DNA from: Phycisphaera sp.
GTDB taxonomy: Bacteria; Planctomycetota; Phycisphaerae; Phycisphaerales; Zrk34
Reading direction: 5' to 3'
DNA length: 33,391 nucleotides
Assembly: GCA_016125285.1 (NCBI GenBank)
Contig: WGMA01000056.1
Location: forward strand, 1-33,391
Shown here: piece by piece, positions 15,221 through 18,126 of the stretch
Position numbering within the stretch: position 1 is the first letter of the stretch
Layout of the letters: each line of letters opens with the position of its first letter
Translations under genes and position numbers: made by a program
Notes under the pieces: generated by a model
Database searches by the model: none
The model's input: the letters and a program-made list of their open reading frames with translations, nothing else
Told to the model about the DNA's origin: nothing

Positions 15221-16528
15221 TCAGCTGTCCAGGTCCTTGAGCGCGGCCTTGATCCGCTGCGTCGACGTGTCGCTGTCGCCGTGCAGCTTGAGGTAGCGGT
15301 GATACGCGTCGGCGGCGATGAACTTCAGCTGCGCGTGGAAGTCCGACAGGCCCGCGTCGCCGACCAGCTCCGCGGCCCAGTCGCCCAGCACCATCGCATC
15401 GATCTCGTCGAGGTCCTTGAGCGGCTGCCGCGCGAGCTTGAACCCGGCCTTGAACGGCGCGTCCACGTTCAGCGTGTACCTGTTCGCCTCTTCGGGGTTG
15501 TCGGCCTCGAGCAGGTAGAACAGCATCAGGCGGCGCGCCGCGGGGCGACGATCGCCGGTGGCGTTCTGCAGCGCGGCCTTGAGCGACTCCTCCCGCTGCG
15601 CGACCTTCACCGCGTCCAGCTTCGCGTCGCGCGTCTGGCGTCGCAGCAGCTGATTCAGCTGCGCCGAGATCGAGTGCGGACGCATGTGCCACTCGTACTT
15701 GTAGATCGTCGGACGCACCATCACCTTCTTCGACACGTTCACGCCGTTGACCTCGAACACCTTCTGCTGGTACAGCGACGGCGCGTGCTGGAGCTTGACG
15801 CTGTAGAAGTCCGGCAGCGTCACGTCGTTCTTGACGATGAACGCGTAGAGCTGCTCGCCGGTGACGGTGCTCGACGTGGCGCGCTGACGCAGCGCCTCGG
15901 CCTCGGCGTGCGCCTTGTCGTACAGCGGCTTGAGCAGCGCGACCTTCGCCTCCGCCGTCGACTCGGTCGACAGCGACGCCTTGTCCAGCTGCGACTTGGC
16001 CTCCGCCTCGCGCACCTCCGCGGCCGCCAGCTCCTTGCGCAGCGCCTCGGCGTCGTCCGCCGACAGCACCGTCGCGTCGTCCGGGATCGCGCCGAGGAAC
16101 TCGCCGGTCTTGAGGTTGTAACACACCGGCGGCACCAGCTGGCCGTCCACGAACGGCGCGGCCTTGCCGTTCCACTGCGAGCCCGGCAGGTACTCCGCCG
16201 TCGGCTGCTTCTTTTTCTTCTTCGTGTTCGCCGCCGCCGCCGCGTCGTCCGGCAGCGGCGGGATCGGATCGTTGTTCAACTCGCGGTTGCGATAGACCTG
16301 CGTGTCCTTCCGCCAGATCGTGCCGTGGTCGTGATAGCAGTCCGCGGCGTAGTGGTCGATCAGCTGCTTGAGCGTGGTCGACAGCTCGTCGTAGCTCGGC
16401 GTGTCGCCACGCGACGGGCTCGCCGCCCACATCAGCGCCATCGCCGTCACCATCGCTACGCGCGCGAGCTGCTGCACCGCCCGCCCCGGGCCACCCTTAC
16501 GCGTCGTCGTCGATTCATGTCGGAACAT
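15221..16528 (-). CDS. Hypothetical secreted protein with coiled-coil region
   Basis: A 435-residue protein with an N-terminal export signal after a long basic stretch (core ARVAMVTAMALMWAASP, about 22-38). Residues about 155-215 (ADDAEALRKELAAAEVREAEAKSQLDKA...) are heptad-rich and probably coiled coil. A KKKKKQP patch lies near 103. The rest is alpha/beta without a motif I know; LFYLLEADNPEEANRYTLNVDAPFK may be a TPR-like helix pair. The ATG at 16528 is preferred to 16534 because AAGGGG then lies 8 nt away rather than 2. Function unknown. Confidence 0.72.
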   Translation of the reverse strand: MFRHESTTTRKGGPGRAVQQLARVAMVTAMALMWAASPSRGDTPSYDELSTTLKQLIDHYAADCYHDHGTIWRKDTQVYRNRELNNDPIPPLPDDAAAAANTKKKKKQPTAEYLPGSQWNGKAAPFVDGQLVPPVCYNLKTGEFLGAIPDDATVLSADDAEALRKELAAAEVREAEAKSQLDKASLSTESTAEAKVALLKPLYDKAHAEAEALRQRATSSTVTGEQLYAFIVKNDVTLPDFYSVKLQHAPSLYQQKVFEVNGVNVSKKVMVRPTIYKYEWHMRPHSISAQLNQLLRRQTRDAKLDAVKVAQREESLKAALQNATGDRRPAARRLMLFYLLEADNPEEANRYTLNVDAPFKAGFKLARQPLKDLDEIDAMVLGDWAAELVGDAGLSDFHAQLKFIAADAYHRYLKLHGDSDTSTQRIKAALKDLDS

Positions 16529-16588
16529 CGGCATAGCCCCTTCGCTCAAAACACCATGTCGGTCGACCCGATCGGGTCGGTTACTCAT

Positions 16589-16683
16589 CTACGAAGTGCC
16601 CACTGGCCTGTGCGGTGCGAACGCACATATGGATCGTATAGCAATTGAGCGCACGAATCATATGGATACCGGCGTAACGGATT
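16589..16683. other. Intergenic DNA upstream of the coiled-coil protein gene
   Basis: Less GC-rich than the flanks, with no gene. It presumably holds the promoter of the minus-strand gene starting at 16528; no clear -10/-35 pair is assignable. Confidence 0.4.
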
Positions 16684-16764
16684 CCGCGCACAAAAAACGG
16701 CGGGGTGCCGAACTGGCCAGCCCGCCGTCGTTCCGGGGTCAATGTTGATGAACTAAGTATCGGC
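16684..16764 (-). repeat. Direct repeat copy A (81 bp) with terminator hairpin
   Basis: It matches 16897-16978 with three substitutions and one A-run indel. On the minus strand it contains CGGCGGG (16721-16727 complement) pairing with CCCGCCG (16698-16704 complement), followed by a T-run of six. Similarity continues more weakly for about 40 bp past the copy (ggccgga...ggggcgctttccccaattgtgcg). Confidence 0.88.
16692..16727 (-). terminator. Rho-independent terminator in repeat copy A
   Basis: A minus-strand CGGCGGG/CCCGCCG stem with an inner GCC/GGC, followed by TTTTTT. There is no annotated minus-strand gene between copies B and A, so if used it would end read-through from parA or a small RNA. 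Confidence 0.75.
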
Positions 16765-16824
16765 GCGCGGGCCGGATTCCTCTATGGGGCGCTTTCCCCA
16801 ATTGTGCGCCGGCGCGGTTTCCGC

Positions 16825-16845
16825 GGCGAATCCCGCGGATTCGCC
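16825..16845. repeat. Perfect 9-bp inverted repeat between the two direct repeats
   Basis: GGCGAATCC (16825-16833) and GGATTCGCC (16837-16845) surround CGC. There is no T-run; it could be a structural element of a transcript or an operator. The remaining spacer 16765-16896 has no gene. Confidence 0.6.
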
Positions 16846-16896
16846 ACGTCTACGCGCCGGGCGTCTGTGGGTGCGGACGGCAACCCCCGGCCCGAT

Positions 16897-16978
16897 CCGC
16901 GCACAAAAAAACGGCGGGGTGCCAAACTGGCCAGCCCGCCGTCGTTCCGGGGTCAATGTTGATGGATTAAGTATCGGC
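16897..16978 (-). repeat. Direct repeat copy B (82 bp) with terminator hairpin
   Basis: Second copy of the 16684-16764 unit, 213-214 bp away. It begins with the same CCGCGCACAAAAAA word and ends with AAGTATCGGC. It lies 75 bp beyond the ParA stop on the minus strand and supplies its probable terminator. Confidence 0.88.
16905..16941 (-). terminator. Rho-independent terminator downstream of the ParA gene
   Basis: Minus-strand CGGCGGG (16935-16941) pairs with CCCGCCG (16912-16918), followed by seven Ts. It is about 110 nt past the ParA stop codon. Confidence 0.82.
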
Positions 16979-17052
16979 ACACCGGCCGTATATTTCCACG
17001 GGGTGTTTTACCCAAATGCGTCGACCAGTATAAATTGCTTTATTTGAGCGTT

Positions 17053-18126
17053 TTACCGTCTGTCCGCGAGCTCTTTGGCGCGACGGACGAGCTCGGCGGC
17101 GCGGTTGGTCGGGCGTGGTGGGCCCGCGGGGGGGTCGATCGGGGCGGCGGCGCGGCCGGCGGCGTCGAGCACGATGTTGTACTCCGCCGAGTGCGGCGCG
17201 GCGGGCGTCGCCGGCTGAGCGGGCGCGTGCTCGGCGGGCGACGGGTGCGCGACGTGCGGCGACGGCGTGCTGAGCGTCGCGGGGGTGATCACCGGCGCGG
17301 CGGGCGCCTGGTTGAACACGCCCGGCCGATCGGGCATCGCCAGCCGCTGCGGTTGCGGCGTGTGCTTGAGCAGGTGCTGGGCGAGCTGCTCGTAGTCCGA
17401 CGCGGCGTCGCCGGTCGGTTCGTATTCGCTGATCGGCTGGCCGAGGCTCACCGCTTCCTGCAGCCGGTGGCTGAACCGGATCGGCGCCTGGATGACGCGG
17501 TCGCCGAAGTGACGCGTGAGCTCCGCGATGATCTGCTGCGCCATCCGCTGCTGGTCGTCGAACATCGTCGGCAGCACGTGGAAGCACACGGCGTGCCCGG
17601 CCCGGTCGGCCAGGACCTGCAGCGTCAGCGCCTGACGCGTCGAGCCCGACAGCGCGAGGTAGCCGGTGTCGACGGGGATGATCACTTCGCGTGCGGCGCG
17701 CAGCGCATTGAACGTGAGCAGCCCGATCGCCGGTCCGCAGTCGATCACGCACAGGGCGTAGTGCGAGCGGACCTGCTCGAGGGCGAGGGCGAGTCGGATG
17801 TCGCGGTCGTGGGCGTCGACGATGCGGTGCTCGGCGGCGGCGAGCTCGGGCGTGGACGGCGCGAGGTCGAGGTTGGCCGAGACCTGCCAGACGATTTCAG
17901 GAAGGATGATGCGCGGCGTGGGCGAGCCGGCGGCGAGCAGCGTGTCGGCGATGGACCGCTGCAGGTGCGACTCGGGCACCGCCAGGCCGACGGCGCAGTG
18001 GCCCTGGGGGTCCATGTCGACGAGCAGGGTCTTGTGGCCGAGATCGGCAAAGGCCGCGGCGAGGTTGATCGCCGTGGTGGTCTTGCCGCAGCCGCCCTTC
18101 TGATTGATCACCGCGAAGATGCGCAA
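17053..18126 (-). CDS. ParA/Soj-family ATPase (orphan)
   Basis: A 357-residue ParA/MinD-type P-loop ATPase. The deviant Walker A is KGGCGKTT (10-17), with the signature Lys10 and Lys15. Walker A' is LLVDMDPQGH, and Walker B is CVIDCGPAIG. The ATPase domain ends near residue 250; a Pro/Ala-rich linker and a basic C-terminal helix (NRAAELVRRAKELADRR) follow. No ParB, parS or MinC/E gene is adjacent, so it may position another cargo, though chromosome segregation cannot be excluded. The start is TTG at 18126 with AAGGAA 7 nt upstream; initiation at the family's N-terminal MRIFAVINQKGG supports it. Terminators lie in the repeats downstream. Confidence 0.92.
   Translation of the reverse strand: MRIFAVINQKGGCGKTTTAINLAAAFADLGHKTLLVDMDPQGHCAVGLAVPESHLQRSIADTLLAAGSPTPRIILPEIVWQVSANLDLAPSTPELAAAEHRIVDAHDRDIRLALALEQVRSHYALCVIDCGPAIGLLTFNALRAAREVIIPVDTGYLALSGSTRQALTLQVLADRAGHAVCFHVLPTMFDDQQRMAQQIIAELTRHFGDRVIQAPIRFSHRLQEAVSLGQPISEYEPTGDAASDYEQLAQHLLKHTPQPQRLAMPDRPGVFNQAPAAPVITPATLSTPSPHVAHPSPAEHAPAQPATPAAPHSAEYNIVLDAAGRAAAPIDPPAGPPRPTNRAAELVRRAKELADRR

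Follow-up and report, generated by a model that had tools for sequence, protein, structure and literature searches.

Downstream of a parA-like gene, the 33,391-nt stretch of DNA analysed here (the window) carries a short sequence twice on the minus strand, and the question is whether each copy is a gene for a small RNA (sRNA) or whether the terminator of parA has simply been duplicated. The first-pass annotation had described two copies of about 95% identity lying 213 bp apart, with a minus-strand terminator at each left end, weaker similarity past the right end and no minus-strand gene between them. These features were all recovered. Blastn aligned two direct repeats, 16684-16766 and 16897-16978, with 95% identity over 82 bp (E = 3e-30 for the second copy) and a start-to-start spacing of 213-214 bp; each left end holds a GC-rich hairpin followed by a U-run. 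Without gaps, the copies are 86% identical across 113 nt, and no minus-strand gene was called between them by the home-made gene caller that supplied the gene calls around members. The 82-bp unit of that annotation is a real repeat; however, its boundary was drawn too short, as the promoter-proximal 40 bp also belong to it, and the full unit measures ~124 bp (Table 1). We refer to the downstream copy as w1 and to the copy adjoining parA as w2. The palindrome of w2 starts 39 bp past the parA stop codon (17053-17055), on the same strand. A 12-bp inverted repeat without a T-run (CGCGGCGAATCC / GGATTCGCCACG, 16822-16848) lies between the two copies, and a 455-aa reading frame downstream of the pair (15221-16588, minus strand) had no Pfam match.

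Table 1. Features of the duplicated unit and its neighbour, in window coordinates.
Feature	Position	Strand	Basis
Unit copy w1, the downstream one, with palindrome, -10 box, predicted sRNA and terminator	16684..16806	-	sequence comparison
Unit copy w2 (adjoins parA)	16897..17020	-	sequence comparison
w1 palindrome GGGGAAAGCGCCCC, candidate regulator site; centre 31.5 bp before first -10 base	16786..16799	-	
w2 palindrome GGGTAAAACACCCC, imperfect; spacing as in w1	17000..17013	-	
w1 -10-like box GATACT	16756..16761	-	
w2 -10-like box GATACT	16970..16975	-	
w1 predicted small RNA, ~58 nt	16692..16749	-	start placed from -10 box
w2 predicted small RNA, ~59 nt	16905..16963	-	start placed from -10 box
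w1 conserved motif CCCCGGAA	16731..16738	-	
w2 conserved motif CCCCGGAA	16945..16952	-	
w1 terminator hairpin and U-run	16692..16729	-	folding
w2 terminator hairpin and U-run	16905..16943	-	folding
parA-like gene, upstream of w2	17053..18126	-	PF13614 AAA_31

A search of the 6.09-Mb genome with the unit (blastn), which the first-pass annotation had suggested, returned three additional copies on two other contigs, a tandem pair on C82 and a single copy on C50; given these copies and the E value of the second window copy, the repeat in the window is not a chance similarity. The copies stand in unrelated surroundings, and the similarity between the three loci stops at the unit or within ~12 bp. 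The C50 copy is flanked by two genes on the strand opposite to it, the end of a carbon-nitrogen hydrolase gene on one side and the start of a DUF5060 gene on the other, so that no gene on its own strand was found to read into the unit. Between w1 and w2, 67 of 71 positions are identical (94%) from the -10 box to the U-run, while the promoter-proximal 40 bp diverge faster (28 of 40 identical, 70%). The promoter part of w1 is closer to the downstream copy on C82 (92% match) than to w2, which suggests that sequence has been exchanged among the copies.

Read 5' to 3' on the minus strand, the unit consists of a palindrome, a -10-like box (GATACT, GATAAT or CATAAT among the own copies), ~20 bases containing CCCCGGAA, a GC-rich hairpin and a U-run. 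The palindrome is of a GGGG-N6-CCCC-like form, best represented by GGGGTAATTACCCC, and because it is imperfect in w2 it was missed there by our palindrome pattern scan. The distance from its centre to the first base of the -10 box was 31.5 bp in all five own-genome copies, and four members belonging to two other genera matched it to within 1 bp. Palindrome-type members at matching spacing (within 1 bp) occur in genome G045 and in Planctomycetales bacterium ZRK34, the named relative within the window's family; in the latter, a pair of adjacent copies is present, one of them detected only with R1, the covariance model of the five own copies (E 0.137). Altogether, a palindrome at matching spacing was seen in only ten rows among 122 members scanned, of which one (L141) is probably due to chance and two represent the same place; L277 and L279 were not usable, and the test carries some bias, since R1 itself contains the palindrome and loci that it had found were among those scanned. 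At the palindrome sites C3, C34, C44 and C55, the adjoining stretch inspected held no sRNA core.

Setting the predicted RNA start 7 bases after the -10 box yielded the short RNAs listed in Table 1. In minimum-free-energy folds at least the first 15 bases, CCCC included, were unpaired in the predicted RNAs of all five own copies. Compared with shuffles, the short RNAs of the window copies were moderately stable (z -1.85 and -2.36), and folds of the full units barely exceeded shuffles (z -0.77 and -0.90). Whichever frame is read, the two predicted RNAs contain neither ATG nor GTG, TTG being the only start codon present. A hairpin with U-run, as expected of an intrinsic terminator, was found by folding and by covariation. 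A simple consensus scan of 16600-17100 returned no sigma-70 promoter and no terminator; the latter was probably missed because the scan demands an uninterrupted stem, and the stem here has an internal loop. The window copies carry the -10 box and the palindrome only, with no recognisable -35 element. The U-run is often directly followed by a GCGC-containing stretch (16684-16697 and 16897-16910 in the window; loci L024, L039, L052, L054 and L058), and by eye such stretches also follow terminators apparently unrelated to the sRNA family.

With R1, matches at E<=0.1 were obtained in 23 of the 201 order genomes, a count that includes the own genome and some chance matches. These relatives revealed a common core, CCCCCGGAAGGGC, followed by the terminator, and a scan of a contig collection for core plus terminator found at least 119 stretches; among the 80 matches listed, 71 bore planctomycete names (37 of Phycisphaerae type), 6 were unnamed bacteria and 3 were others. 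A core model, R2, was built from 33 sequences, none of which occurs in the 92 window-family loci checked. Its alignment (A5) contains 13 base pairs with 94.4% of cells paired, and 11 of the 13 pairs are doubly changed; none of 500 shuffles reached the covariation score, and 3 of 500 reached the number of doubly changed pairs. R1 hits judged to be chance or near-duplicate (L043, L045, L047, L051-L055, L057, L058 and L060) and the wrongly anchored L039 had been left out of A5 and of alignment A4. CCCCG is invariant across 49 aligned sequences, partly by construction, since rows were fetched or anchored by this motif.

Applied to the own genome, R2 recovered the copy on C50 (E 2.6e-8), w2 (2.2e-7), the C82 copies (C82b 4.1e-7, C82a 0.0045) and w1 (4.9e-6), C82a failing to outscore a match to the terminator alone at another place in this genome (0.003). 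Six further members fell below 1e-3 (C74, C64, C63, C68, C54 and C5), and the genome holds ~11 members, two pairs of them in tandem. Matches were present in all nine genomes of the window's family at E<=1, with best E values from 3.5e-18 to 1.0e-8, and nine members lie below 1e-3 in ZRK34, whose complete chromosome is CP050848 and bears no MAG label. Across the order, 136 of 201 genomes and 76 of 110 genera had a match at E<=1e-5, leaving 65 genomes without one at this threshold; up to 12 members occur per genome (G033 and G081). A phylum sample of 393 genomes gave 69 with matches at E<=1e-3, 53 of them inside the order (down to 9e-22). The 16 genomes outside the order gave weak matches (best 6.7e-5), and in half of these genomes the alignment began at model position 28 or beyond, covering essentially the terminator. 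Blastn with the unit found nothing in the eight other genomes of the window's family, but the covariance models do reach them. An exact 21-mer of the window copies was absent from the contig collection, which may omit the own genome's record, and a 19-mer of the relatives was present in 5 of 101 order genomes. Near-matches to the motif with two mismatches numbered seven in the own genome.

Promoter-like sequences were then scored next to the core in relatives, the window copies not being counted and three loci (L103, L133 and L137, from Sulfitobacter and two Clostridia) having been excluded. A sigma-70-like promoter with a score of at least 6 lay just upstream of the core at 65 of 114 loci, as against 1/114 in each of two control windows further upstream and 1/111 downstream, and the -10 boxes peaked 21 bases before the core. 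This comparison covered 114 of the 116 loci remaining after the exclusion; those 116 include the 39 loci L146-L184. When 76 of the 77 listed loci remaining after exclusion were compared with dinucleotide shuffles of matching upstream DNA, 65 of the 76 scored 6 or more, against 28% of the shuffles. As the terminator control set comprised only 8 sequences, we relied on the shuffles and the control windows instead.

It is against these results that a pure terminator has to be weighed. If the window repeat were the intrinsic terminator of parA and other genes, duplicated and spread as a cassette without an RNA of its own, one could point to w2 directly following parA on the same strand, to the missing consensus promoter in 16600-17100, to the six copies in G033 that end a repeated module (with an integrase in the one copy scanned), and to the upstream neighbours of 40 members in four genomes, 23 of which are on the same strand according to our gene caller. 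The same count, however, gave an opposite-strand gene upstream of 15 members (two uncalled), and in family f3 the sRNA gene is divergent from a 6-pyruvoyl-tetrahydropterin-synthase (PTPS) gene (PF01242) at all 12 of the 19 loci at which the neighbour was tested. Upstream of the hairpin the unit moreover includes another ~55 bp, in which the distance from palindrome to box is fixed, CCCCGGAA lies outside the main terminator stem, and the relatives' promoters are concentrated beside the core. We therefore regard this explanation as unlikely. A simple duplication of the parA terminator, which the first-pass annotation had offered as the alternative, also fails to explain the context of the C50 copy, the promoters of the relatives and the recovery of the copies by an out-of-family model; nor did the unit turn up at many loci solely as a terminator. 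The sRNA gene duplication named first by that annotation fits the computational data best, as the unit recurs on C50 without a same-strand gene upstream, promoter-like sequences in relatives stand at a preferred distance from the core, and R2 recovers the copies. Transcripts of parA may stop at the w2 terminator as well, which is compatible with an sRNA role.

Two further explanations are less probable still. The RNA could be longer (~124 nt) and start upstream of the palindrome, which would then be an RNA hairpin at the 5' end and not a DNA site. The palindrome can indeed fold as a hairpin whose four GC pairs are retained by every own copy, w2 having a single mismatch; in w2 a TATACT also lies upstream of the palindrome. 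We consider this improbable, since no more than 31 bases separate the start of the -10 box from the core at 40 of the 65 relatives' loci scoring 6 or more, divergence is much faster in the 40 bp preceding the -10 box than in the RNA part, and a palindrome at matching spacing is confined to the ten rows described above among 122 members. As for a dispersed mobile repeat of REP/MITE type with no function of its own, the multiple copies, both tandem and dispersed, and the association with an integrase module in G033 would suit it; yet the compensatory changes in the helix, the promoters beside the core in relatives and the one or two copies per genome of f3, whose position is conserved at all 12 loci tested, make it very improbable.

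At the two loci examined in family f6 PTPS was not the neighbour, and other genes were found instead; in the window's family, one paralogue lies tail to tail with an alpha/beta-hydrolase gene in three genera. By eye, the paralogues keep the core and differ in their promoters, which are of a TTGACA/TACGAT type, a TATACT type with an extra 5' hairpin, or the palindrome type of the window. A second paralogue type with the core CCCCCGGAAGCGCCCG or a close variant (L245, L247, L256, L264 and L265) sits 18-43 bp after a same-strand gene at five loci, in segments that are partly duplicated; four of the five genes encode a glycosyltransferase or sulfotransferase, and the fifth has no Pfam match. The copies in G033 (L270-L274 and L276) are six similar versions of one member, with 84-87% identity in alignments, and each ends a repeated stretch of up to ~3.1 kb; the neighbouring gene of L271 is a phage-type integrase. 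Between the sRNA terminator and the start of the repeat there are at most ~9 bp, which would suit a boundary or attachment site at the 3' end of the sRNA.

Two other candidates were discarded. A leader or attenuator was rejected on the downstream neighbours of the 40 members (same strand 18, opposite 16, uncalled 6), and a CsrA-type reading, with GGA in a GCCC-CCGGAA-GGGC hairpin, was set aside as the own copies cannot form that stem.

We consider it likely that each window copy is a complete minus-strand sRNA gene belonging to a planctomycete family of paralogues that act in trans, through C-rich pairing and without Hfq; that such a gene family exists is well supported by the comparative data. 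Starting from what was observed computationally (the unit, its homologues, the covariation of the hairpin, the enrichment of promoters in relatives and the distribution), we infer transcription, the role of the palindrome, the pairing and its targets as follows. A regulator would bind the palindrome ~43 bp before the RNA start and, as no -35 element is recognisable, would most likely be an activator. RNA polymerase would then use the GATACT box and produce an RNA of ~58 nt, whose first 15-20 bases (within AUCAACAUUGACCCCGGAA) would be unpaired and whose remainder would form the terminator hairpin and U-tail. The RNA would act in trans, probably through a C-rich 5' end that pairs with mRNA stretches rich in G and resembling a Shine-Dalgarno sequence, and the tandem duplication might raise dosage or allow separate regulation of the copies. 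More tentatively, the family could represent an Hfq-independent sRNA system of the whole order, in which an ancestral gene (divergent from PTPS in one family) gave rise to paralogues with a common CCCCCGGAA seed and terminator but different promoters, so that many signals would converge on one set of G-rich mRNA targets.

None of the nine window-family genomes (f1, G000-G008), of which six are at least 90% complete, gave a match to Hfq (PF17209); the same search found it in 5 of 14 control genomes. No Rfam release 15 family reached its gathering score in 16400-17200 of the window or in 33 loci (31 of relatives, 2 of the own genome); the sub-threshold matches were ncS035, with 13.2 bits against a gathering score of 79, and Chloroflexus-1, with 11 bits against 181.5. 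The element was not described in the literature searched, a scope that left out most subscription papers and all bioRxiv preprints. On these two grounds we call it a new family, apparently of a known kind, the trans-acting bacterial sRNA. Few planctomycete sRNA families are on record, and a review table lists 8 for the PVC group compared with 345 for Proteobacteria (PMC9029176). A family present in 136 of 201 order genomes, with Hfq not found in the nine searched, would open up post-transcriptional regulation in the phylum, and a covariance model would annotate such sRNA genes directly.

Several features resemble known systems. RsaE belongs to the regulatory sRNAs of Firmicutes that carry a C-rich motif. 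Staphylococcus aureus IsrR, together with FsrA, is described in PMC9410917 as a short regulatory RNA with unpaired C-rich regions, one of which abuts a stem at the 5' end in IsrR; according to the same source, targets in S. aureus are recognised through C-rich motifs, and FsrA binds a Shine-Dalgarno sequence by means of such a motif. The unpaired CCCC in the predicted RNAs of all five own copies is of this kind. The comparison does not extend to sequence, however; here CCCCGGAA adjoins the terminator stem, the phylum is another one, the pairing is a prediction, and at the 51-65% GC of the genomes measured, G-runs are less specific. In gene organisation, the nearest parallels are Qrr, LhrC and OmrA/OmrB, which are near-identical sRNA genes, some of them adjacent, each with its own promoter and terminator. 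The sRNA family described here differs from these in sequence, lineage and regulator, and in the own genome it has ~11 members, among which are two tandem pairs.
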